Shown: one piece after another, positions 3,597 through 64,000 of the stretch
Layout of the letters: each line of letters starts with the position of its first letter
Position numbering within the stretch: the first letter of the stretch is position 1
Assembly: GCA_022072085.1 (NCBI GenBank)
Contig: JAJVII010000021.1
Location: forward strand, 1 to 64,000
DNA: 64,000 nt
From: Phycisphaerae bacterium
GTDB lineage: Bacteria; Planctomycetota; Phycisphaerae; JAJVII01
Reading direction: 5' to 3'
Translations under genes and position numbers: made by a program
The notes under the pieces: model-generated
The model's database searches: none
What the model was told of the DNA's origin: nothing
What the model saw: the letters and a program-made list of their open reading frames with translations, nothing else

Positions 3597-4064
3597 ATGA
3601 TTATGAGCGAGAAGAACGCAGAGCCAGACGGGGCGTCCACGATCCTGGTGGCCGACGACAACGAGCAGAACCTCGAGCTGCTGATCGCCTACCTGGACGA
3701 GCTGGAGAACGTCCGGATCGTCACGGCCCGCGACGGCGCCGAGACGATGGAGAAGATCCGCGCCGAGAACCCCGACCTGGTCCTGCTGGACATCATGATG
3801 CCCAAGATGAGCGGCTTCGAGGTCTGCCGCCAGGTCAAGGGCGACGAGGAACTGAAGAAGATTCCGATCATCATGGTGACCGCGCTCAACGAGCTGAGCG
3901 ACATCGAACGGGGCGTCGAGTGCGGCACGGACGACTTCCTCTCCAAGCCGATCAACCGGCTGGAACTGGTCACCCGCGTCAAGAGCCTGCTGCGCGTCAA
4001 GCACCTCAAGAGCGAGCTGGAGCGCACGCTGGCCTACCTCAACGACGTGGACCAGGAGGAGTGA
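3597..4064 (+). CDS. Single-domain response regulator (CheY-like receiver)
   Basis: About 155 residues, almost all a receiver domain. ADDNEQN holds the acidic pair, LLDIMMPKMSG carries the phospho-acceptor at about Asp65, VTAL the conserved threonine, and SKPIN the conserved lysine at about Lys117. A short charged helix follows, with no output domain, so it probably acts through protein contacts, for example with a kinase, phosphatase or diguanylate-cyclase partner. No histidine kinase lies nearby. The ORF track starts upstream inside the heptamer repeat; three ATGs at 3591, 3597 and 3603 are possible, and 3597 is preferred because GGGG sits about six bases upstream. Confidence 0.88.
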   Translation: MIMSEKNAEPDGASTILVADDNEQNLELLIAYLDELENVRIVTARDGAETMEKIRAENPDLVLLDIMMPKMSGFEVCRQVKGDEELKKIPIIMVTALNELSDIERGVECGTDDFLSKPINRLELVTRVKSLLRVKHLKSELERTLAYLNDVDQEE

Positions 4065-18495: not shown

Positions 18496-19110
18496 GTGGA
18501 TCAGCAGGTCGGCCAGCCCATCCCGCCGCCGCCGGAGGAGGCCTTGTTCGCCGGGACGAACCCGCAGCGCCGGGCCGCCCTGGGCGAGCTGATGGCCCGC
18601 TTCGGCCCGCGGCTGTACGCGCTGGCCCGCCACCTGGTCCGCTCGCCCGAATTGGCTGAGGAGCTGGTGCAGGAGTGCTTCGTCCGCCTCTGGCAGCGGG
18701 CGATCCACCCGCCGCCGCAGGCCGGCCCGGTGCTCAAGGTCTACGGCTACCTCCGCCGCGTGCTGGTGAACCTGACCTACCACCAGCACCGCCCGGACGC
18801 CGCCGCCGGCTGGGCCACCGACGCAGCCGACCCGTTGGCCGACCACGCCGACGACGGGCCCGCACCGGCGGACCTGCTCATCCGCGCCGAGTCGGCCGGC
18901 CGGGCGATGGAAGCGATGGACCGCCTGCCTGACGATCAGCGGACGGTGCTGGCGTTGCGGGTGCTGGAGGGGCGAAGCTACCAGCAGTTGGCTGACGAGC
19001 TGGGTTGGCCGATCGGCACGGTGATGAGCCGCCTGCACCGAGCCCGATCGGCGTTGGCCGAGATGCTGGAGGAGTCCGAACCGAAGCTGCGTCTCCGCCG
19101 GCCGTCGTAG
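18496..19110 (+). CDS. ECF RNA polymerase sigma factor
   Basis: About 204 residues using the GTG at 18496 (GAGG upstream); the ORF-track start adds 74 proline-rich residues that look like non-coding DNA. Region 2 is RLYALARHLVRSPELAEELV with CFVRLWQR; region 4 is LPDDQRTVLALRVLEGRSYQ with the HTH around LADELGWPIGTVMSRLHRAR. Length and order fit ECF sigma factors. An anti-sigma-like gene follows, but 575 bp away across a repeat array rather than overlapping, which is unusual. The regulon is unknown. Confidence 0.88.
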   Translation: MDQQVGQPIPPPPEEALFAGTNPQRRAALGELMARFGPRLYALARHLVRSPELAEELVQECFVRLWQRAIHPPPQAGPVLKVYGYLRRVLVNLTYHQHRPDAAAGWATDAADPLADHADDGPAPADLLIRAESAGRAMEAMDRLPDDQRTVLALRVLEGRSYQQLADELGWPIGTVMSRLHRARSALAEMLEESEPKLRLRRPS

Positions 19111-19113
19111 GGA

Positions 19114-19148
19114 AGTGGCGAGTGCTGAGTGCTGAGTGCCGAGTGCGG
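19114..19148 (+). repeat. Heptanucleotide repeat, five units
   Basis: AGTGGCG, AGTGCTG, AGTGCTG, AGTGCCG and AGTGCGG run in phase three bases after the sigma-factor stop. These are the same units as at 3477-3539. Confidence 0.92.
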
Positions 19149-19154
19149 AGCGCG

Positions 19155-19617
19155 TACGGGGACTGGTCCGTTTTTCGCGTCCTCGCGAAAAAGGGACCTG
19201 TCCCCCTCTCCGGGCAGTGCCGAGTGCCGAGTTTCAAGTGCGGAATGTGGAATGCGGAATGCGGAGCCAAGACACCCTCACCCCGGCCCTCTCCCTCGCG
19301 AGCGAGGGAGAGGGAGAAGAGCGGGAACCGAGCGATTGCGGGGACTGGTCCGCTCTTACGGGGACTGGTCCGTTTTTCGCGTCCTCGCGAAAAAGGGACC
19401 TGTCCCCCTCTCCGGGCAGTGCCGAGTTTCGAGTTTCAAGTGCGGAGTGCGGAATGTGGAATGCGGAATGCGGAGCCAAGACACCCTCACCCCGGCCCTC
19501 TCCCTCGCGAGCGAGGGAGAGGGAGAAGAGCGGGAACCGAGCGATTGCGGGGACTGGTCCGCTCTTACGGGGACTGGTCCGTTTTTCGCGTCCTCGCGAA
19601 AAAGGGACCTGTCCCCC
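19155..19617 (+). repeat. Tandem array of 202/209-bp composite repeat (REP-like hairpins plus heptamers)
   Basis: Two full units (19155-19356 of 202 bp, 19357-19565 of 209 bp) and a third partial unit (19566-19617). Each unit holds a quasi-palindrome with arms GGGGACTGGTCC-TTTTTCGCG and CGCGAAAAA-GGACCTGTCCCC, a run of 7 or 8 heptamers (19216-19264 and 19418-19473), and a perfect palindrome CCCTCTCCCTCGC/GCGAGGGAGAGGG. The 7-bp length difference between units equals exactly one heptamer. The first hairpin resembles REP sequences mobilised by RAYT transposases; no transposase is present here. The array separates the sigma and anti-sigma genes. Confidence 0.95.
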
Positions 19618-19685
19618 TGCTATCTCTCCCCGCCCTTCGTGGTCCTTCGTGGGAGACCTCTTGCCGGCGTTGAAGGAAGCGTGCG

Positions 19686-20717
19686 ATGACCGACGATGAA
19701 ATCCGCAACCGGCTGAGCGCCTACCTCGACGGCCAACTGCCCGAGGCCGAGGCGGCGGCGGTCCGCGCCTACCTTGCCCGGCATCCCGACGCGCAGGGGA
19801 ACCTCGACCGCCTCTCGCGCGCCGACGCGGCGGTCCGCGCGTCAGCCGACCAGGCCGCCAGCCAACTCGACACCGAGCGGCTGATCGCCGCCGTCGGCGG
19901 CCGACTGGACGCACAGCCTTCGCCGCGGCGGCGGACCGGCTGGCTGGGCTGGACCGTCGGGGCGGCGGCGGCGCTGCTGGCGGTCGGACTGCTGACGGTT
20001 CTCTACCGCACGCTTCCGGCCGGGCCGACACACCGGCAAGAGGCCATGCAGGCCGGCTTCGCGGCGGCTGACGCCCCCCTGCCCCCGATCGTGCCCGCGT
20101 CGCAGGTGTCGGCCGCCCAACTCGGGGCGATCAGCGACGACGTCGCGGCGCCCGGCGCGACGATCCAGCCGATGCGTTCCGCGCCGCCGCCGGGCTATGT
20201 GGCCGCGCCGGGCGTTCGGCCCGCGCCACCGCCGGTCGCGACCCCGCAGGCGGCGACCGCGCTGCAATTCCCGGCTGCCGCGACGGGCCCGGCTGCGTCG
20301 GCCCAGGCGGCACTGGCGGGCGATGATCCCGAGGCGGCGGCCCTGCCGCCGGCCGGCGTGGCGCTGGCGGAGGTCCCGCCCGCGGACCCCGAAGGCGTGC
20401 AGCGGGCCCTGCTCTACGACGAACTGGTCCGCAAGATCGAGGTGGTGATGATCCGGGCCTCGACGCTGGGCCCGCAGCGCTCGCCGCGCTGGCAGTCGCT
20501 GGCCGACACGATCCGCAGCGACGAACTGGTGGAGCGCTGCCGCCGGGGGCGGCGGATGCTGCCGGCCGACAGCGACCTGGCCCGGCTGTTGGCATCGGCC
20601 GAGGTGATCCTGGTCCGCACCGAGCTGGCCGGCAGTTGGGTGGACGAAGCGGCGGCGGTGCAGGAAGCGATCGCCGCCTCGAACATCCTGGAGCGATGCC
20701 GCAGGCTGAGAGCGTGA
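19686..20717 (+). CDS. Anti-sigma-factor-like membrane protein
   Basis: 343 residues. The N-terminus (DDEIRNRLSAYLDGQLPEAE, then LARHPDAQGNLDRL) is the usual anti-sigma opening, with a YLDGQL core, but it lacks the HxxxCxxC zinc motif. One transmembrane helix lies near 96-119 (LGWTVGAAAALLAVGLLTVL). The outside part is a long Pro/Ala-rich stretch followed by a helical domain of about 100 residues ending at SNILERCRRLRA. By position it should hold the ECF sigma factor at the membrane. The ATG has no strong ribosome site nearby. A TPR lipoprotein starts 10 bases after the stop. Confidence 0.78.
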   Translation: MTDDEIRNRLSAYLDGQLPEAEAAAVRAYLARHPDAQGNLDRLSRADAAVRASADQAASQLDTERLIAAVGGRLDAQPSPRRRTGWLGWTVGAAAALLAVGLLTVLYRTLPAGPTHRQEAMQAGFAAADAPLPPIVPASQVSAAQLGAISDDVAAPGATIQPMRSAPPPGYVAAPGVRPAPPPVATPQAATALQFPAAATGPAASAQAALAGDDPEAAALPPAGVALAEVPPADPEGVQRALLYDELVRKIEVVMIRASTLGPQRSPRWQSLADTIRSDELVERCRRGRRMLPADSDLARLLASAEVILVRTELAGSWVDEAAAVQEAIAASNILERCRRLRA

Positions 20718-27231: not shown

Positions 27232-28419
27232 TCACCCGGCGCGGCGGCGACGGGAGGCGGCCAGTGCCAGGCCGCCCAGGCCCAGCAGGGCCAGGGTCGC
27301 CGGCTCGGGCACCTGGGCGACGGCCGTGAACTTGAAGAGCTGATTGCTGTTGCCGGCGCCGTTCCAGCCGCCGCCTTCGAGCACCAGCAGGTTGTCGGCG
27401 TCATACCAGAGCAGGGCATTGGCCCGGTCGCCCTGGGAGTGATTGGTCGGGCTGAACTGGTCGGCCGGGATGATGTCGCGGCAGTAGAGGCTCTGCAACC
27501 GCTTCCAGGTGTCGCCGCCCTGGTTGGCGTATTCCTCGATGGACCAGTTGTCGTAGGCAGTGCTGTAGCGGAGCACCCAGAGGTCGCCGTCGGCGTCGAA
27601 GCTGAGGCTGGAAATGGTCCCGGTGGTGATGGCGACGCCGCTCTCGTTCTGGAGGGTCAGGGCCGTCGGCGTGGTGGCCGTCCGCGTCCCGACGGTGTAG
27701 GTCGGCGTGCCGCTGTCGACGACCAGCCCGCTGCGGGCCGCCAGGTCGAAGTAGTAGACGCCCGCGCCGGCGGCGCCGAACATGCGGGCAACGTTGCCGC
27801 CCGACGGCGTGCCGTGAAGCTGGAGCCCGTGCAGGTGGTTGCCCCCGGTGCTGCTGGTCGCGATCTGGGTCATCGCCAGCGTCGCGCCGTCCTTGTCGGT
27901 CGGGTCATAGGCGCCGCTGCTGTTCTGGGGCTGGAGCTCCAGGATCGTCGTAACGGAACTGCCGATGTTGTCGTAGCTCCAGAACATGCTCGGGTCGCCG
28001 CCGCTGTCGCCGCCGTAGTAGGCGATCGACTGGCCGGTCTTGCCGCCCGTGCCCATCACGCCCCCGTTGAACGTGTCCACGGGATTGAGAAACGATGCAT
28101 CGCGCCACCGGCCGTCGACCGACGTGCCGTAGTAGTTGCTGCTGGTGGTCAGGGAGTAGCGGTAGTTGGTGAACGTGAGGTCGGCGATGTTGAAGTCCTG
28201 CCGGGCGACCGACGGGTAGTAGAGCGGCCGGGCGCTACCCACGAACGCCAGGTGACCCGCGCCGTCGGTGCTCATCGCGTTGCCCGACCAGCGGGTGCTG
28301 TCGCTGCTGCCCTGAGCGTAGGAGTCGTACTGGATTTCCGTCAGCCCCGCCCGCGCCGGCAGACAGGCCGCAAGCGTCAGGATCGCAGCCGCCGCACAAG
28401 TCGTCCCGAGTCGCAACAT
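27232..28419 (-). CDS. PEP-CTERM protein (propeller-like passenger)
   Basis: 395 residues. Signal peptide (MLRLGTTCAAAAILTLAACL, cut after ARA). The C-terminus is VPEPATLALLGLGGLALAAS followed by RRRRAG: the PEP motif, hydrophobic helix and basic tail recognised by an exosortase. The passenger has short repeated strands with DGAGHLAFVGS, SFDADGDLWVLRYS and WYDADNLLVLEGGG, spaced like a six- or seven-bladed propeller; it resembles secreted propellers only by impression. GGAGG precedes the ATG. A sigma-54 promoter lies 115 bases upstream. It is probably processed and attached to the outer envelope or matrix. Confidence 0.85.
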   Translation of the reverse strand: MLRLGTTCAAAAILTLAACLPARAGLTEIQYDSYAQGSSDSTRWSGNAMSTDGAGHLAFVGSARPLYYPSVARQDFNIADLTFTNYRYSLTTSSNYYGTSVDGRWRDASFLNPVDTFNGGVMGTGGKTGQSIAYYGGDSGGDPSMFWSYDNIGSSVTTILELQPQNSSGAYDPTDKDGATLAMTQIATSSTGGNHLHGLQLHGTPSGGNVARMFGAAGAGVYYFDLAARSGLVVDSGTPTYTVGTRTATTPTALTLQNESGVAITTGTISSLSFDADGDLWVLRYSTAYDNWSIEEYANQGGDTWKRLQSLYCRDIIPADQFSPTNHSQGDRANALLWYDADNLLVLEGGGWNGAGNSNQLFKFTAVAQVPEPATLALLGLGGLALAASRRRRAG

Positions 28420-28792
28420 GATCGACCTCCGTTCTCCCGCGAGTCTTCACGAAACGAGCCAGGAATTGGCCTGTCCCCGGTCCCCGGCGCCCCGGTTTGC
28501 CGCCCTCGGACGTGTGGACCGTTTGGCGATGCCGCAAACGGCGTGCCAGGACCGACTATCGCCCTCGACTTCTTCCCTTGGAGGCCATAAGCCGTTGGGC
28601 TTCCCCGCCTTGCAGTGCAAAATTCTCTCCGGAATAACTCCGCTGCCCGATTCCAGAGGCTGACGGTGTTGATTTGCATCAACATGGAACACGCCGCGCG
28701 TTGATTCCAGGCAACGCGCAGGCTCCGCGGGCGCGGATCGATGCGGCGGGCGCAAGGACCTCAGGCGGGCCCACTTCAGGCGGCCGGGGGGA
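28420..28792. other. Intergenic region with sigma-54 promoter and small dyad
   Basis: This 373-bp gap has no credible gene. It contains the sigma-54 site at 28534-28548 and a GTTGAT-TTGC-ATCAAC dyad at 28668-28683, about 128 bp upstream of the promoter. The dyad's position would suit an activator site, but nothing else ties it to this gene. Confidence 0.5.
28534..28548 (-). promoter_or_regulatory. Sigma-54 (-24/-12) promoter of PEP-CTERM gene 27232-28419
   Basis: On the minus strand: TGGCACG, four bases, TTGC, then G. This matches the RpoN consensus TGGCACG-N4-TTGC completely. The distance from the -12 C to the ATG is 115 bp. Confidence 0.88.
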
Positions 28793-29626: not shown

Positions 29627-29985
29627 CGCAAGACTCCCTGACGGCTGGCCGCCGCGTTACGAACCCGAACCATCATACGCCGACACGAACCGTCGCAGCC
29701 AGCAAAATGGGCGCCGGCCCGCCAGGCCGACGGGCAGTGTTGCGGCCGGTTATCGCTGGTGTCGAGAATTTGTACAGAATCCAGTGGAAATGACTGCGGC
29801 CAAGGCTCAATGGAATTTTTTCTATTCCTTCCATTAGCAGGACTTGCGGCCCAGACCGCGTTTCCTGGCACGCCATTTGCAGCACTTGTGAGGTCACCTT
29901 GAGGCATTTCCTGCACCCGTGAGACGCTTGTCGGCGGCCGTCCCAACTGAGCGAGAAGGGCCATTGTAATCGAAGGAGTCTGGCG
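29627..29985 (+). other. Regulatory region of the 29986 PEP-CTERM gene
   Basis: A 359-bp gap with no gene. It holds TGTACAGAATC at 29771-29781, AATGAC soon after, CAGGACTT at 29838-29845, the sigma-54 promoter at 29866-29880, and a 105-nt leader with GAAGGAG before the ATG. The same boxes occur at the same distances upstream of the gene at 36911, so they are candidate activator-binding sites. Confidence 0.7.
29866..29880 (+). promoter_or_regulatory. Sigma-54 (-24/-12) promoter of PEP-CTERM gene 29986-31986
   Basis: CTGGCACG, four bases, TTGCA: a full match to the RpoN consensus. The -12 C lies 106 bp before the ATG. Confidence 0.92.
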
Positions 29986-31986
29986 ATGAAGCGATTCATT
30001 TTCGCGGCCATGGCCGTTGGTCTGCTGCTGAGTTTGCACGGGGGGGCGCAGACGGCACAGGGGGCAACCTACTACGTCAACTACGGCGCCAGCGGCGGCG
30101 GTACGGGCTGGGGCGACGCCTATGGGTCGATCCTGTCGGCGCTCAATGCGATCGACACGGCTGACGACACCAGTGCAACGATCAAGGTCGGCCTGACCAC
30201 GGGCGGCAATTATTACGGCGCTTCCAGCAAGACCATCGCCTACGCCAGTTCCAACACGACGGCCGACATCAGCATCCTGGGCGGCTGGGATCCCAACACC
30301 GACACGGTCACCGGCGTCAGCAACATCGGCGGGACCGGCATGGGCCTGAGCCTGATGGTCAGCGGCGGGGCCGTCGGCAACGCCAACATCGGCAACATCA
30401 CGATCCGCGACTTCAACATCAACACCTCCGGCATCGGGCTGAACACCAACGCCAGCACCAACAACTCCAACTATGTCAACTTCGCCGTTTACGACAGCAC
30501 CCTCAGCACCTCGTCGCTGACGTCCAATGTCATCCGGACCTCGGCCAACGGCGGCAAGGTGGCCGGGCTGCTCCTGGACAACACCGACGTGAGCACGCCG
30601 GTCGGCAGCGTCATGTCGGCCATCTACGGCAGTTCCGCCAACGCCGGCGGGGTGAACACGTTCGAGGTGCGCAACGGCTCGACGATCACGGCGGCCGCCG
30701 ACGGCAGCGGCAACGGCAAGAATGGGGCGGCCGAGGTCATCGGCGCCCGGTTGGTCGCCTCCGGCGCGACCACCACCATCACCAACACCGGCGCCGGCTG
30801 GGGCGCGTATGTGGGCAACACCGCCTACGGGCCGTACGGCCACAGCGTCACCGACGTGACGATCACCTCGACCGGCGGGGCCACCGGCGGCGGGCTGAGC
30901 CTGGTCGCCGACGACTTCAGCCCCAGCGCGGTCGCCTCGGTCGTCTCCAACGTCACCATCACCACTGGGGGCGGGGCGGCGCTTCGGCTCTATGGCTGGC
31001 ATGGCAGCGGCAGCGATGCCAACGCGACGGACGTGGCCATCAGCAACGCGACGCTGACCGCCAACGGCGCCGCCGGCATCGCTCTCTACATCCAGTTTCA
31101 AAACGGCGGTATCTCGGACGTGGATGTCACCGACAGCACGCTGCACGGCGGATCGCAGGCCGTCTATCTCGCCGGCGGCGGCGGAAACCGCGGCGCCGAC
31201 ACGCTGGATTTCCTCCGCTCAACGCTCTCGGCCGGCGCGGCCGACGGCTCGACCAACTCGGCCAGCCCGGTCGTCCAGATCAACACCTACGACGACTCGA
31301 CGACGATGACCCTCGACCGCACCATCGTCCGCAACGGCGCCGGCGGGGTTCTCATCGCCCCGGTCACCACCCAGGGCAACGCCTTTCTCACGATGATCAA
31401 CTCGGTCATCACCGACCAGACCGGTTACGGTGTGCAACTGGATGCCCCCGGAAACAGCGGCGAGAGGCTGACCGCCACCAACTCCACCTTCAGCGATCTG
31501 GGCGGACCGGCCGCCGTCTTCGGCGACAACGGCACCAGCACCATCCTGGAGGCGATACTGAACTACGTCGCCTTTGTCCTGCGCGACCCCAGCGCAACGA
31601 TCTTTGAGAACCTGGACGCCAACCGTCAACTGGCGCTCATCGGTGACCTGAACGCCTTCTACGAGTATCTCACTTACTTCGCCAACACCGGCGGCGGCGG
31701 GTTGAACGACACCCTCACCTCCAGCCTGGACGCCCCGGCCGGCGACGCCATGCTCGACGCCGACGGCTACCACCTGCTGGCCGGCTCGCCGCTGGCCAAC
31801 CAGTACACCCCCTCCGGCGGCGACCCGCTGGTCGACATCGAGGGCGACATTCGCCCGGATGTCACGCTGGCCGACATCGGCGCCGACGAGGCCTACCCCG
31901 TCCCCGAGCCGGCGACGCTGGGGCTGCTGGCGATCGGCGGCGCGGGGATGGTCGCCGGCGCGTTCCGCCGGCGCCGCCGCGATTGA
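29986..31986 (+). CDS. PEP-CTERM beta-helix protein with choice-of-anchor-Q-like region
   Basis: 666 residues. The signal peptide (MKRFIFAAMAVGLLLSLHGG) is followed by TYYVNYGASGGGTGWGDAY, the typical start of right-handed parallel beta-helix surface proteins. The body is Gly/Asn/Thr-rich with many short strands. Near the C-terminus, YHLLAGSPLANQ and VDIEGDIRPD, then DIGADE, resemble the choice-of-anchor-Q region. The tag is VPEPATLGLLAIGG with RRRRRD. It should be exported, cut by an exosortase and placed in the extracellular matrix. The promoter, leader and signal peptide resemble those of the gene at 36911 although the passengers differ. A terminator follows. Confidence 0.9.
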   Translation: MKRFIFAAMAVGLLLSLHGGAQTAQGATYYVNYGASGGGTGWGDAYGSILSALNAIDTADDTSATIKVGLTTGGNYYGASSKTIAYASSNTTADISILGGWDPNTDTVTGVSNIGGTGMGLSLMVSGGAVGNANIGNITIRDFNINTSGIGLNTNASTNNSNYVNFAVYDSTLSTSSLTSNVIRTSANGGKVAGLLLDNTDVSTPVGSVMSAIYGSSANAGGVNTFEVRNGSTITAAADGSGNGKNGAAEVIGARLVASGATTTITNTGAGWGAYVGNTAYGPYGHSVTDVTITSTGGATGGGLSLVADDFSPSAVASVVSNVTITTGGGAALRLYGWHGSGSDANATDVAISNATLTANGAAGIALYIQFQNGGISDVDVTDSTLHGGSQAVYLAGGGGNRGADTLDFLRSTLSAGAADGSTNSASPVVQINTYDDSTTMTLDRTIVRNGAGGVLIAPVTTQGNAFLTMINSVITDQTGYGVQLDAPGNSGERLTATNSTFSDLGGPAAVFGDNGTSTILEAILNYVAFVLRDPSATIFENLDANRQLALIGDLNAFYEYLTYFANTGGGGLNDTLTSSLDAPAGDAMLDADGYHLLAGSPLANQYTPSGGDPLVDIEGDIRPDVTLADIGADEAYPVPEPATLGLLAIGGAGMVAGAFRRRRRD

Positions 31987-32054: not shown

Positions 32055-32268
32055 GTTCGTTTCGTATGACTCAGCCCGCGCCGGAGGGGCGTCGGGATGC
32101 CCGGGGCTCGGCGTCTGCCGCTGTTGCGTCCGAGCATCATTTCGCCCAGCCGTGTTGCCTTTTCGCATCAGAGCGGTTGTGGCGCCACCGGCGAACCGCT
32201 GCGACGCAGTATTCCTATCTAATTTATTAATAAGACTTTACGGGAATTCCCTGCCCCCCTTCCGCGTT

Positions 32269-32283
32269 TGGCACGCTGTTTGC
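32269..32283 (+). promoter_or_regulatory. Sigma-54 (-24/-12) promoter of PEP-CTERM gene 32476-36516
   Basis: TTGGCACG, four bases, TTGCA: a full RpoN consensus match. The -12 C lies 193 bp before the ATG. Confidence 0.92.
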
Positions 32284-32475
32284 ATGTATTTCCTATCAGC
32301 AAAGGTGACTAACTGAACGCAGCCTCGGGGCAGCACTCCCCCTACCACGCTCTTCCGTCACCTGCTCCAAGACATGATATCGACAAGCGGCGTGCGCGGT
32401 GCGCGCGGTCCGCAGTCCGTCCCGGCTGACAGTCCGCCTTGGCGACGAATCGCGAATTGCCTGGAGGAGTCCGCT

Positions 32476-35400
32476 ATGTTCAAACGCACGACTCTGACCT
32501 TCCTGGTCTGCCTGCTGACGCTCGGGGCGGGCTGGGCCCACGCAGATGTCTACACCTGGGGGCTGTCCGGCAGCGGCGCCTGGGCCACCGGGACCAACTG
32601 GACGCCGACCGGCCCGCCGACGTCGGCCGACACCGCCGTCTTCGACGACAGCACGGGCGCGGGGCGGACGATCACCCTGGCCACCAACACGATCGCCACC
32701 GTGAACGTCACGGGCAGCTACGGCTGGACCTTCAGCGGCAGCGGCTCGTCGCTGACCTTCGGCACGCTGTTCAGCTACGCCAGCAGCGGGCAGAGCTCGA
32801 TCAGTTCCCGGCTGCGCGGCACCGGCCAACTGAGCGTCACCGCCGGGCGCCTGGACCTCAACAACTCCACCAACGACTTCAGCGGGGGCCTGCTGATCGA
32901 CGGCGGACAGGTCCGCGTCAGCGGGGCGACCTCGGGCACGCCCCTGGGGGCGGGCCTGCTGCGGCTCAAGAGCGGCAGCCTCAGCGGCCAGGGGTCGCAG
33001 AACTACTCGATCATCAGCAACACCTTCCAGATCGAGGGCAACTTCACCTTCGGCGGCATGGTCGAGACGATCACCAACCAGTTCACCGGAACCGGCACGC
33101 TGCTGGGCAGCTACAACCTGACGGTCCCAACCGGGGCCGGCGTGCAGTTCAACAGCACCGCGGTCATCGGGGACGGCGGCAACGGCTACGGCTTCGCCAA
33201 GCTGGGCGGCGGCACGCTGACCACATCGGCCCTGAACACGTTCACCGGGCAGGTGGCCATCAAGGAGGGCGTCCTCGGCTTCACCGGCGGCAGCGCAACC
33301 GTCGGGTCGGCCAGCCCGTTGGGCAAGAACTCGACGATCCTGCTGGGCGACGCCGTCCTCGGGGCCGACGCCTCGCTGCTCAAGGGCAACGGCGCCGGCA
33401 CGCTGTGGCAGAACATCACCGTCGTCGCCGGCGCGGGCACACGCACCATCGGCACCAGCGGCCAGTCCAACGGCACCTATGCCGGCAACATCACGTTGAA
33501 CAAGAACGTGACCATCAACACTTTCAGCGGGGACAACGCCACCTTCAGCGGCCAGATCACCGGCGTCGGCGGCATCACCAAGACCGGCACCGCGACGGCC
33601 ACCTTCTCCGGCGACAACAGCTTCCAGGGCGCGGCGGACCTGACCGCCGGCACGACGATCCTCTCGACGTCGGCCAATGCCCTGAGCACCAACGCCCTGG
33701 GCGGCACGGTGACCGTCCAGAGCGGCGCCATCCTCCGCTACCAGGTCGACATCAGCCGAAATATCACGCTCAACGGCGGCACGCTCATCCCCGGCGACGC
33801 CGGCAACAACATGTACAACAACTCCGGCAACCTGACCGTGACCGCCCCATCGACCCTCGGCGGCAGCGGCGACGGAACGAGATGGCGGGCCGTCTCCGGC
33901 CTGGTTTCCGGCGGCAGCCTGCTGACGGTCAACAACACCTCGCACGCCAGCACGCTCCTGTTCACCCATGTCGACAACTCGCACAGCGGCGGGCTGCTGA
34001 TCATCAATGGCTCGCTGGGGGCCGGGGCGGCCGGTTCGCTGGGCACGGGCCCGGTTCAGGTCGGCGACGCCACCGGCGTCGGCGCCCTGCGGTTCTACGA
34101 GGATCTGCCGGCCGCCAATAATCGCCCCAGTTCCATCGTCGTGAACGCCAACAGCGAAGTCAGCATGAACACCACAGCCGCCGTGACCATGCCGATCACC
34201 CTCAACGGCGGGTCGTTCTGGGGCGGCACCCGCGGCGGCGGCGTCCGCACCGCCGGCGGAATGACCGCTGGCACCACGCACGGCCTCAACATCTACTCCG
34301 GCGCCCTCACGCTGGCGGCCGACTCCTTCGTCGGCGTTTCCGGCGACGGCAGCGACAAGCTCACCCTCAACGGCCAGATCGTCGACGACACGCCGGCCCA
34401 CGACTTCAAGGTGACCTACTACTCCGGATCGACCACGCAGGGCATCTGGCTGGGGTCGGCCAACAGCTACGGCGGCGGCACCGAGATCAACGGCGCCCTG
34501 GTCGTCACCGCTGCGACCGGCGGCCTGTCCAGCGGACCGGTGGTCGTCTCCCGCATGGGGCCGGGCGCCTATCCGGGCAACTACACGTCGATCGTTCAGA
34601 ACCGCGGCATCCTGCGCACCACCGTGGACGGATCACTCACCTCCGCTTCCAGCGTCTCGTTCACCGCCGACAGCCTGTATGACATCCGCTCGATCGAAAG
34701 CAAGGTTGTCTCGCTGGGTTACGGCGCCGCCATCACCCGCGGCGCCGGGTCGGCCCCGATCGTCTACAGCGGCGCGGGGCAGAACGTCGCCCTGTCGCGC
34801 GGCGCCATCATCGACCCCAGCGCCCCCGAGCCGACCCGCACCGAGGTGGCTGCCCTGGGCGGGACCGGCAGCGACTTCGGCCTGTTCCGCGGCCGCACTG
34901 TCGCCGAGTCCGGCACGTGGTCCTTCGGCAACGACGGCAGCTCGACGCTCTACCGCGGACTGGCCGCCACGACCGTCGACTTCACCTTCACCGGGACGGC
35001 CAACGACGTGGCTTCCGGCACGCCTGGCGTCAGCTTCTACTCCCAGGCAGCCCGCACGCTGACCATCGGCACGACCGGCGCCGGTGCGGCCATCAACAGC
35101 AGCAAGCTGATCCTCGACGGCGCGGGCAGCTTCGTCTTCGCCGGGTCGCTCAACACGCTGCCCGGGACGATCCAGCAGAACGGCGTCTGGATGGTGCGGT
35201 TCAACGACGCCGGCGGACTGGCCAGCGGCAAGACCCTCAACGTCAACGGCGGCTGGCTCGACCTGAACCATGCCGGGGCCCTGGCGGCCGGGTCGGCCGT
35301 GAACGTCAACAACGGCGGCATCTTCTACCTCGACCAGACGCTCACCAGCGGCACGGTGGCCGTCAACAACGGCGGCGGGCTCTACCTGACCGGCGACCAG

Positions 35401-36516
35401 TCCCAACTGGGCGCGGCCGCCTGGACCTTCGCCGCCGGCTCGCAGATCTTCCTGGGCGTCAACCTGACGGCCGCCCTGCCGGGCTCGACCGTCGGAAACT
35501 CGGACATCGTGCTGCGATCGTCGAGCACGGTTTCCTTGAGTTCCGCCGGCCTGGCGCTGAGCGAGTCGACGCGCCTGACCGTGGCGCCGACCTCCATCGG
35601 CGGCGCCCAGACCGCGACGCTGAGCACGGGCAACCTCTCCCTGGTCGGCGGGCAGACCTTCGGCCGACTGACCGCCCTGACCGGCGGCTCGCTGGTCGTC
35701 AGCACAGTCGTCAACTTCACGGGCGGCAAGCTGATCGTCGGCGACGTGAACGACTTCCGCGTGATCAGCCAGATGAGCACGCCGGTGTACTACATGGCCG
35801 GACAGGCCGGCCTGGTGCAGTTGTCCAGCACGTCCAACCAGATGGCCGCCATCGAGATTCAGAAGGGCACGCTGCGGGTTGACGCCCTGGCGCACCTGGG
35901 CGGAGCGACCGACATCAACCTGGTCGCCGGCGGCACGCTGCGGCTGGACTACAACACTCCCGCGTGGACCGGCGCGCTGCACGGCACGGGAACCGTCCTG
36001 ATCGGCGACGCCGCCAGCGGCACGAGCACGCTGACCCTGAACACCGGCACGACCGTCAGCCCGGGCAACAGCGCGGGCGTGATGGACTTCACCGGCAATC
36101 TCGCCTTTGGCGCGGGGACCTCGACGCTGAACATCGAGGTGCTCGGCGGCGGGGCCGTCGCCGGCACGGACTACGACGCGCTGCACGTCACCGGCACGCT
36201 GACCGGCCTGTCCAATGTGGACCTCGTCATCACCTTCGACACCGGCCTGTTCGACGTCGACCTGCTGGGCGACACGCTGACGATCGCGACCACCAGCAGC
36301 GACCTGAGCGGCCTGCTCACCGGCACGACGGGTTTCAAGTCGGTCACGATCGTGACGCCCGGCTACTCGGCCGACCTGAACTACAACAACGGCAGCATCA
36401 CCCTGACCAACCTCACCGGTCCCGAGCAGCCCGTCCCCGAGCCGGCGACGCTGGGCCTGCTGGCGCTGGGCGGAGTCGGCCTGATCGCCGGAGCATCCCG
36501 CCGCCGCCGCATCTGA
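32476..36516 (+). CDS. Giant PEP-CTERM protein with autotransporter-type beta-strand repeats
   Basis: 1346 residues from the ATG at 32476 (GGAGGAG upstream; the ORF-track start is 34 codons early). Signal peptide to GWAHA. The body carries repeats of the passenger-associated type (for example TKTGTATATFSGDNSFQGA then TAGTTILS, and YGFAKLGGGTLTTSALNTFT), which build long beta-helices in autotransporters. There is no C-terminal beta-barrel; the protein ends VPEPATLGLLALGG plus RRRRI, so export and anchoring must rely on an exosortase. Composition is Gly/Thr/Ser/Asn-rich with almost no Cys. It is the largest gene in the window and probably an adhesin or matrix protein. Confidence 0.92.
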   Translation: MFKRTTLTFLVCLLTLGAGWAHADVYTWGLSGSGAWATGTNWTPTGPPTSADTAVFDDSTGAGRTITLATNTIATVNVTGSYGWTFSGSGSSLTFGTLFSYASSGQSSISSRLRGTGQLSVTAGRLDLNNSTNDFSGGLLIDGGQVRVSGATSGTPLGAGLLRLKSGSLSGQGSQNYSIISNTFQIEGNFTFGGMVETITNQFTGTGTLLGSYNLTVPTGAGVQFNSTAVIGDGGNGYGFAKLGGGTLTTSALNTFTGQVAIKEGVLGFTGGSATVGSASPLGKNSTILLGDAVLGADASLLKGNGAGTLWQNITVVAGAGTRTIGTSGQSNGTYAGNITLNKNVTINTFSGDNATFSGQITGVGGITKTGTATATFSGDNSFQGAADLTAGTTILSTSANALSTNALGGTVTVQSGAILRYQVDISRNITLNGGTLIPGDAGNNMYNNSGNLTVTAPSTLGGSGDGTRWRAVSGLVSGGSLLTVNNTSHASTLLFTHVDNSHSGGLLIINGSLGAGAAGSLGTGPVQVGDATGVGALRFYEDLPAANNRPSSIVVNANSEVSMNTTAAVTMPITLNGGSFWGGTRGGGVRTAGGMTAGTTHGLNIYSGALTLAADSFVGVSGDGSDKLTLNGQIVDDTPAHDFKVTYYSGSTTQGIWLGSANSYGGGTEINGALVVTAATGGLSSGPVVVSRMGPGAYPGNYTSIVQNRGILRTTVDGSLTSASSVSFTADSLYDIRSIESKVVSLGYGAAITRGAGSAPIVYSGAGQNVALSRGAIIDPSAPEPTRTEVAALGGTGSDFGLFRGRTVAESGTWSFGNDGSSTLYRGLAATTVDFTFTGTANDVASGTPGVSFYSQAARTLTIGTTGAGAAINSSKLILDGAGSFVFAGSLNTLPGTIQQNGVWMVRFNDAGGLASGKTLNVNGGWLDLNHAGALAAGSAVNVNNGGIFYLDQTLTSGTVAVNNGGGLYLTGDQSQLGAAAWTFAAGSQIFLGVNLTAALPGSTVGNSDIVLRSSSTVSLSSAGLALSESTRLTVAPTSIGGAQTATLSTGNLSLVGGQTFGRLTALTGGSLVVSTVVNFTGGKLIVGDVNDFRVISQMSTPVYYMAGQAGLVQLSSTSNQMAAIEIQKGTLRVDALAHLGGATDINLVAGGTLRLDYNTPAWTGALHGTGTVLIGDAASGTSTLTLNTGTTVSPGNSAGVMDFTGNLAFGAGTSTLNIEVLGGGAVAGTDYDALHVTGTLTGLSNVDLVITFDTGLFDVDLLGDTLTIATTSSDLSGLLTGTTGFKSVTIVTPGYSADLNYNNGSITLTNLTGPEQPVPEPATLGLLALGGVGLIAGASRRRRI

Positions 36517-36588: not shown

Positions 36589-36791
36589 GTGTGTTGGCCG
36601 GCGGCGCTGCTTCCGGCGGCCGGCAGGGCTGCATGGGGAGTTCTGGCCAAGCCCCCTCGACAGCGTTGCGAAAACGCCTCAATGGGGGTGAAAAAATGTA
36701 CAGAATCGGCCTGCAATGACCGACGACAACATCTCAAAATACAATTGTTAGCTCATATCTCATCAGGACTTACAATTTTATTGGCGTTCTA

Positions 36792-36806
36792 TGGCACGGA
36801 ATTTGC
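36792..36806 (+). promoter_or_regulatory. Sigma-54 (-24/-12) promoter of PEP-CTERM gene 36911-38380
   Basis: ATGGCACG, four bases, TTGCA: a full RpoN consensus match. The -12 C lies 105 bp before the ATG. Confidence 0.92.
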
Positions 36807-36910
36807 AGTAGCAGGCGATCAGGCTGTGACACTTCCAGTGCACGAAAGACGCATGTCGGCAACGGTTTCGGCAGAGTGAGAAGGACAATCGCGATTGAAG
36901 GAGGCTCGAG

Positions 36911-63008: not shown

Positions 63009-63764
63009 TCACGGCCGGCGGCGTCGGCGAACAGCCGGCCCGACCAGGGCCAGCCCCCCCAGCACCAGCAGCGAGAGCGTCGCCGGCTCGGGGACCGCGG
63101 TGACGGCATACATGTTGTGCAGCGTCGCCCCGGTGAAGGTCGGAACGATCGTCATCGACCGGATGGCCGGCTCGCCGCCGCTGCCGGTGATGGCCCAGGT
63201 GACCGCGGCCTTGCTCGAAGGCGAGCTGGCCGACAGGACCGTGCCGATCTGGTTGGTGTAGTTGTCGTCGGAGTAGAGCTTGATGGTCAGCGTGTGCTGC
63301 GCGTAGCCGCCGATGAGCGTGAAGAAGGAGACGGCCTCGACGGGATCGTCGAACTGCACCCGCCAGGCCGCCGGCGTGTCGTACCACCAGTCGTAGACCT
63401 TATACCCGCTGCGCGAGTCGTGGCGGAGCTGGGTGTAGTTGCTGACGCCCGCGTTGTTGATGTCGAACGAGGCGATCGAAAACCCTGTGTCGCCGCTGCT
63501 GAAGTGATCGTAGGGCGACATGCCGCCCGGGGCTGTCACGTTGATGTTCGCGTTCCAGGCCGAGTAGCCGTCGCCGAGGTTCGTGTCAAAGTCGACCGAG
63601 AGGTCCGCCGACTCGAATCCCGCCGGCGTCGTGCTCATGAACGTGGCGAACCCGCTGCTGCCGGTCGAGCCGGTGGCCTGGAGGATGTAGTCGGCCTGCG
63701 CGGTTCCGACCGCCAGCATCGCGACGGCCGCCATCGCCAGCAGAGAATGGAATGAGGTCCGCAT
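63009..63764 (-). CDS. PEP-CTERM protein (fifth)
   Basis: 251 residues from the ATG at 63764 (GGAGGG upstream; the ORF-track start is 39 codons early). Signal peptide MRTSFHSLLAMAAVAMLAVG, cut after AQA. A compact beta-rich passenger (ADLSVDFDTNLGDGYSAW, AWRVQFDDPVEAVSFFTLIG, TLTIKLYSDDNYTNQIG) resembles PEP-CTERM proteins with a single jelly-roll-like domain. C-terminus VPEPATLSLLVLGGLALVGP plus RRRRRP. A sigma-54 promoter lies 107 bases upstream, matching the other four. Located about 25 kb from the main PEP-CTERM cluster. Confidence 0.86.
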   Translation of the reverse strand: MRTSFHSLLAMAAVAMLAVGTAQADYILQATGSTGSSGFATFMSTTPAGFESADLSVDFDTNLGDGYSAWNANINVTAPGGMSPYDHFSSGDTGFSIASFDINNAGVSNYTQLRHDSRSGYKVYDWWYDTPAAWRVQFDDPVEAVSFFTLIGGYAQHTLTIKLYSDDNYTNQIGTVLSASSPSSKAAVTWAITGSGGEPAIRSMTIVPTFTGATLHNMYAVTAVPEPATLSLLVLGGLALVGPAVRRRRRP

Positions 63765-63870
63765 GTGAATCCCTCCGCGATCTTCGTTCGCCCCTGGCAG
63801 TCTTGGTTTCTCCACCGAAATCGACCGCAACAGCCCTTCCGGGCCGAGCAAGCGAGCGTGTTCGTATGTA

Positions 63871-63885
63871 GCAAAGGCCATGCCA
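63871..63885 (-). promoter_or_regulatory. Sigma-54 (-24/-12) promoter of PEP-CTERM gene 63009-63764
   Basis: On the minus strand: TGGCATG, four bases, TTGCT. One base differs from TGGCACG; the GG and GC essentials are intact with normal spacing. The -12 C lies 107 bp before the ATG. A CATAT/ATATG dyad (63931-63953) containing TTTGT-GA-ACAGAA lies about 57 bp further upstream; it shares half-sites with TTTGTACAGAA at 29769. Beyond it, to the window edge, I see no gene. Confidence 0.78.
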
Positions 63886-64000
63886 GAACCGCCCTAGGCC
63901 CGGCCCTGGACGGCCGGAGACACCCGTAACCATATTTGTGAACAGAAGATATGCCGCATGAGCGGCCGCGGAAATCGCTGCCGCCCACCACCCGTCATGG

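Follow-up and report, generated by a model that had tools for sequence, protein, structure and literature searches.

Two PEP-CTERM gene promoters in the window analysed here, a stretch of 64,000 nucleotides (positions 1 to 64,000, forward strand, of contig JAJVII010000021.1, GCA_022072085.1), are likely to be diverged duplicates within a sigma-54 regulon whose characteristic dyad is most likely read by an NtrC-family activator encoded on contig C56. The initial annotation had noted that these promoters, upstream of genes starting at 29986 and 36911, carry the same boxes at identical distances, and the exact values bear this out: TGTACAGAATC, AATGAC and CAGGACTT lie 95, 77 and 28 bp, respectively, before both -24 Ts (Table 1). 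Its description of them as RpoN-type PEP-CTERM promoters also stands, as both match the TGGCAC-N5-TTGC[A/T] core exactly and both encoded proteins, with signal peptides recognised by eye from sequence, pass the TIGR02595 cut-off (24.4 and 18.1 bits versus 16). A further match that it had not listed, CAG[T/C]GTTGCG, is found at offset 131 in both promoters (29735-29744; 36661-36670). In addition, an AATGGAA-N13-TTCCATT inverted repeat lies between the boxes of promoter 1 (29809-29835) and is absent from promoter 2.

Table 1 Promoter elements and PEP-CTERM genes in the window (offsets in bp from the -24 T)
Feature	Position	Strand	Basis, score or offset
Sigma-54 promoter of PEP-CTERM gene 27232-28419	28533-28548	-	
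Regulon dyad, proximal, TGTTGATGCAAATCAACA	28667-28684	-	score 23.7, offset 136
Regulon dyad, distal, CGTTGCCTGGAATCAACG	28699-28716	-	score 16.6, offset 168
CAGTGTTGCG, degenerate regulon-dyad remnant, promoter 1	29735-29744	+	offset 128
TGTACAGAATC, private box of duplicated pair, promoter 1	29771-29781	+	sequence read
AATGAC, common word, promoter 1	29789-29794	+	sequence read
CAGGACTT, common word, promoter 1	29838-29845	+	sequence read, 28 bp before -24 T
Sigma-54 (-24/-12) promoter 1, TGGCACGCCATTTGCA	29866-29881	+	consensus match
PEP-CTERM protein, 666 aa, signal peptide MKRFIFAAMAVGLLLSLHGGAQTAQGA	29986-31986 (ATG 29986)	+	
Regulon dyad, distal, TGTTGCGTCCGAGCATCA	32122-32139	+	score 16.6, offset 147
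Regulon dyad, proximal, TGTTGCCTTTTCGCATCA	32153-32170	+	score 15.9, offset 116
Sigma-54 promoter of 1380-aa PEP-CTERM gene 32374-36516	32269-32284	+	
CAGCGTTGCG, degenerate dyad remnant, promoter 2	36661-36670	+	offset 128
TGTACAGAATC, second copy of private box, promoter 2	36697-36707	+	sequence read
AATGAC, second copy, promoter 2	36715-36720	+	sequence read
CAGGACTT, second copy, promoter 2	36764-36771	+	sequence read
Sigma-54 promoter 2, TGGCACGGAATTTGCA	36792-36807	+	consensus match
PEP-CTERM protein, 489 aa, signal peptide MKRSIIAVVAICLLASMVGLLQTARAA	36911-38380 (ATG 36911)	+	TIGR02595 18.1 bits
Sigma-54 promoter TGGCATGGCCTTTGCT of PEP-CTERM gene 63009-63881	63870-63885	-	

Alignment of the two blocks from -140 to codon 25 gave 207 identical positions out of 333 (about 62%) and a score of 273, about 20 SD above shuffled sequences (mean 56, SD 11, maximum 97). 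Homology runs from about -131 through the leader and the signal peptide and stops on either side: the local alignment score further upstream is only 24, and BLASTP of the two proteins finds likeness confined to the signal peptide (14/27) and the PEP-CTERM tail (12/18), in line with the earlier claim that the passengers are unrelated. Since the block is homologous and the mature proteins are unrelated, the duplication of a promoter-leader-signal block onto different passengers, also proposed in the initial annotation, is supported. At fixed register the focal pair ranks second in similarity among 4005 sigma-54 promoter pairs, with 70 of 145 positions identical (all pairs: mean 38, SD 6). Such duplication is not unique to the focal pair, because other promoter-leader block pairs in the genome also score far above shuffles. 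Neighbouring PEP-CTERM genes on contig C6 (L028 and L073, at 142 and 144 kb) have near-identical promoters, leaders and signal peptides, a recent tandem duplication. For the 29986 protein, one partial paralogue was found, at C53, and no homologues in the six relatives examined. The pattern of homology supports regarding the focal pair as old, diverged duplicates of one promoter-plus-export-signal block.

We then placed these promoters among the sigma-54 promoters of the genome, of which a set of 90 was picked by consensus. Exact TGGCACGNNNTTTGC sites number 49, against none in a reversed control. The genome has 86 PEP-CTERM matches, 47 with a sigma-54 promoter near the start and 39 without an assigned promoter of this type, and an exosortase match at C8 (PF09721, 190.9 bits). 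Motif discovery on the sigma-54 promoters, which the initial annotation had suggested, yielded a TGTTGC-N6-GCAACA dyad rather than TGTACAGAATC: the k-mers enriched de novo were GATGTTGC and GCAACATC, and the symmetric matrix obtained from the promoters was NATGTTGC-N6-GCAACATN, an 18-bp dyad. This matrix, trained on the same promoters that it scores, finds the dyad at 54 of the 90, with two sites at 39; the independent tests are the activator loci and a genome of another genus in the same family (G001), both described below. Exact dyads occur 53 times genome-wide versus 4 times in the reversed control, 36 of the 53 being in promoters. The dyad is present at 36/46 PEP-CTERM promoters versus 13/44 other sigma-54 promoters (Fisher p = 6e-6), the latter fraction being too high because several of these "other" promoters lead PEP-CTERM genes missed by the mapping. 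One example is the promoter at 63885, whose gene (63009-63881) has a dyad just beyond the window end (score 14.8, offset 141).

The arrangement of the dyads is regular. In the 39 paired promoters the spacing is 31-32 bp (30 promoters) or 21-23 bp (9 promoters), and most promoters of the regulon have one or two copies, at 105-170 bp before the -24 T. Measured from -24, dyad positions follow a helical lattice of 10.4 bp, with none of 2000 jittered controls as strong, and this phasing also holds with the proximal sites alone; such a pattern is to be expected if the activator must face the polymerase from a single side of the DNA. An AT-rich stretch is present 40-70 bp before -24, and IHF-like sites in this hinge show no excess (4/49 versus 3.5 in shuffles). 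The regulon as a whole has the NtrC-type enhancer arrangement of paired dyads, helical phasing and a sigma-54 promoter downstream. In G001, a strict dyad-plus-sigma-54 pattern gave 10 matches, at least seven of them before reading frames ending in a PEP-CTERM tail. Outside the family this pattern is nearly absent, with three single matches only, and therefore the role of the dyad in PEP-CTERM expression may be confined to the family. In G009, a genome of another family, the only strict match (L156:1501) is followed by the gene for a secreted protein whose tail, IPAPGAFLLSAVGLSFVSFLRRRRYL, is PEP-CTERM-like.

About 8 of the 46 PEP-CTERM sigma-54 promoters, including the focal pair, have no good dyad, and the 36 promoters of the whole set that lack one gave no strong common word as a second shared box. 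Three dyad-less PEP-CTERM promoters (L024, L030 and L104) carry ATGAC-N5/6-ATGAC repeats around offset 140-160 in similar surroundings, which could reflect either a second class of enhancer or additional duplicated blocks. Dyad-less sigma-54 consensus sites also lie before genes that, judged by eye, resemble those for DnaK, a GroEL-type chaperonin and a flagellar rod protein (L049, L079 and L078, respectively); their lack of dyads means that further sigma-54 genes must depend on other activators.

Each focal promoter has one degenerate dyad site, unlike the paired arrangement of the regulon. The best site of promoter 1, AGTGTTGCGGCCGGTTATCGCT, scores 5.9 (95% shuffle threshold 5.6) and that of promoter 2, AGCGTTGCGAAAACGCCTCAAT, scores 9.1 (99% shuffle threshold 9.3), so the regulon membership of the pair is weaker than that of the rest. 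The left half TGTTGC is retained in 6/6 positions in promoter 1 and 5/6 in promoter 2, at an offset close to the helical lattice value of 127. This shared half-site, the homology of the whole block and the similar likeness of other promoter-leader blocks in the genome all favour simple duplication, with the pair driven via the degenerate offset-128 dyad or by sigma-54 with an activator acting from solution, and the common words being non-functional residue; we give this explanation about an even chance. Against it, the clustering of conserved positions is somewhat stronger than expected of a duplicate that diverged uniformly. When the 70 matches were permuted over the 145 columns, 1.6% of permutations had a run of 11 or more, and 0.15% had such a run together with a second one of 8 or more (p about 0.0015). 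The conserved words are considered clustered because runs of this length are rare in permutations, which makes a function private to the focal pair possible; with one duplication event only, there is no independent replicate to tell function from inheritance.

What, then, is TGTACAGAATC? The initial annotation proposed it as a candidate activator-binding site, but as the activator site of PEP-CTERM promoters it is not borne out by its distribution: the exact 11-mer occurs only twice in the whole 5,487,003-bp genome, both times in the focal pair. In the 200 bp upstream of the other sigma-54 promoters of the 90-promoter set, no match with 0 or 1 mismatch was found, and matches with two mismatches fall at scattered offsets. 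Nor was the box found before TGGCACG in any of 100 related genomes, or at the genes for two homologues of the 36911 protein in G001, whose perfect sigma-54 promoters have the regulon dyad. Absent from the other regulon promoters and from those of the G001 homologues, TGTACAGAATC is rejected as the activator box of the regulon. A related half-site pair, TTTGT-GA-ACAGAA, had also been reported near the 63009 promoter; the string is indeed there (TTTGTGAACAGAA, 63935-63947), but it runs opposite to the promoter and its distance from the -24 T at 63885 is 50-62 bp instead of 95 bp, and we rejected it as a related box. Judged by its sequence distribution, TGTACAGAATC is private to this one duplicated pair and as such carries little weight in itself.

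A box private to the pair could still be functional. The palindromic core TGTACA may mark where a second sigma-54 activator, or else an accessory factor, binds at the focal promoters only, these having switched away from the dyad activator, as would fit the clustered runs (11 plus 8), the weak dyads at both promoters, the offset of 95 close to a lattice value of 95.8, and the 13 strong NtrC-type activator matches encoded by the genome. However, both copies in the 5.49 Mb belong to one duplicated block, none of the 100 relatives searched has the box, it has no partner half-site, and islands of conservation are expected from inheritance alone too. We therefore consider such a switch unlikely.

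The best candidate for the activator of the regulon dyad is found in an operon on contig C56, which encodes a PAS histidine kinase and an NtrC-family response regulator (18660-20033). Two dyads, scoring 26.3 (GATGTTGCGAAAAAGCAACATT) and 17.2, lie upstream, and the former, just before the operon, is the strongest among the NtrC-type activators of the genome. Across members of the class, 16 of 17 orthologues of this activator have an upstream dyad, which is lacking at 13 of 15 other activators; the orthologue in G001 is 85% identical to the C56 regulator. In a broader sample of named Phycisphaerae and Planctomycetota genomes, which overlaps in part with the first, the dyad was found at 66/70 orthologous loci, versus 6/70 inside the activator gene itself and 1/70 in shuffled controls; these dyads cluster at the start of the kinase gene or, at several loci, directly before the activator. 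The dyad-linked activators form one group (support 99/96) and have an INRTTL[YF]KK segment of the HTH in common. Upstream of the operon (L139: 11281, 11476 and around 11522, minus strand of C56), the two dyads are accompanied by the string TGTACAGAA (TGTACAGAAAGTC), which has nine bases in common with the focal box, a likeness that is possibly due to chance. From these patterns, it is most likely that the C56 regulator binds the dyad, and it probably controls its own operon.

The initial annotation had suggested a DNA-binding assay with an encoded PrsR-like regulator. The window has no PrsR, its only TIGR02915 match being a receiver-domain fragment (3699-4025, 27.8 bits), and the best match in the genome, at 418.3 bits, stays under the cut-off of 502.6. 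We predict that a PrsR-independent, probably autoregulated activator drives the PEP-CTERM regulon in this family. Alternatively, the dyad could be the site of a different activator, with the C56 operon merely another target. A second NtrC-type activator gene, in which no receiver domain was matched (C18:38264-38396; L047, L239), also has a dyad plus a sigma-54 promoter, which suggests a regulatory cascade and indicates that activators can be targets. Nonetheless, the dyad follows the C56 orthologue across the class (66/70 loci), even where the strict PEP-CTERM pattern is not seen, and C56-type activators share their recognition-helix region, making this alternative quite improbable. A broader scenario, in which an autoregulated, class-wide, non-PrsKR kinase/activator pair governs the PEP-CTERM surface proteome of Phycisphaerae and the focal duplicate was rewired, its dyad decaying as TGTACAGAATC took over, appears to us unlikely. 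Finally, when up to two mismatches are allowed, TGTACAGAATC turns up in the window no more often than in shuffled sequence, yet a chance match of the focal boxes is refuted by the block homology score and by several words at exact spacing, and has next to no probability.

Our preferred reading, diverged duplicates within a dyad-controlled regulon, builds on the enrichment, pairing and phasing of the dyad, its link to orthologous operons and the duplication itself, all of which are read directly in the DNA; from them we infer binding, looping, autoregulation, expression and function. The C56 response regulator, encoded with a soluble PAS histidine kinase, is predicted to bind the dyads as dimers at enhancer sites that form pairs, separated by two or three turns of the helix and in phase with the promoter. 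Once oligomerised, it would throw the AT-rich stretch into a loop and open RNAP-sigma-54, and it is probably autoregulated. One module, consisting of the enhancer region, the -24/-12 promoter, the leader and the signal peptide, would have been duplicated and fused to unrelated PEP-CTERM passengers, so placing both focal promoters in a large sigma-54 regulon of surface proteins. The dyad at offset 128 had presumably weakened before the pair inherited it, and TGTACAGAATC, AATGAC and CAGGACTT would be islands kept since the duplication, either inherited or at most an accessory site of both genes.

In enteric NtrC enhancers such as that of glnA, paired dyads about three helical turns apart lie at a distance from the -24/-12 promoter, and the REC-AAA-HTH_8 activator is encoded with its kinase. 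The system described here is similar in its paired, distant dyads and in having a REC-AAA-HTH_8 activator beside a kinase, but differs in dyad sequence, in its surface-protein regulon and in its phylum, Planctomycetota; the C56 activator scores 405.7 bits, under the NtrC equivalog cut-off of 558.6. Its best NCBIfam score is for AtoC (479.6 bits, under the AtoC cut-off of 714), a likeness to the AtoC/ZraR-type activators of Planctomycetota. Planctomycetota NtrC-family regulators have been reported to carry sigma-54 promoters in a survey that says nothing in its text of PEP-CTERM or of a TGTTG site (PMC12316311). We found no link of Phycisphaerae PEP-CTERM genes to an activator in the open-access papers searched, which does not in itself prove novelty.

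PEP-CTERM regulation is known from Proteobacteria, where it involves PrsK/PrsR, with a motif 1 and a sigma-54 motif 2 (Haft et al. 2006, PMC1569441), a type of system also represented by pepA of Aquincola (PMC9850573). As in those systems, PEP-CTERM genes here have sigma-54 promoters, an upstream activator box that is sometimes repeated, and an NtrC-like regulator plus kinase. Motif 1, found in Proteobacteria only, is described in the text of that paper as 17 nt long, ending in TTTACA and lying about 63 bp before the sigma-54 motif (PMC1569441); in contrast, the TGTTGC-N6-GCAACA dyad is 18 bp long, farther upstream, usually paired and helically phased. Going by that textual description, logo aside, motif 1 is not among the enriched words of the 90 promoters. 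The C56 proteins differ as well, with the activator at 418 bits under the TIGR02915 cut-off of 502.6 and the kinase a short protein of PAS-HisKA type for which no match to PrsK was shown. Haft et al. (PMC1569441) noted that more motifs and regulators were still to be discovered outside Proteobacteria. For one planctomycete lineage, the dyad and its candidate regulator offer a concrete, testable answer to this gap, with dozens of natural dyad promoters providing varied helical spacing.
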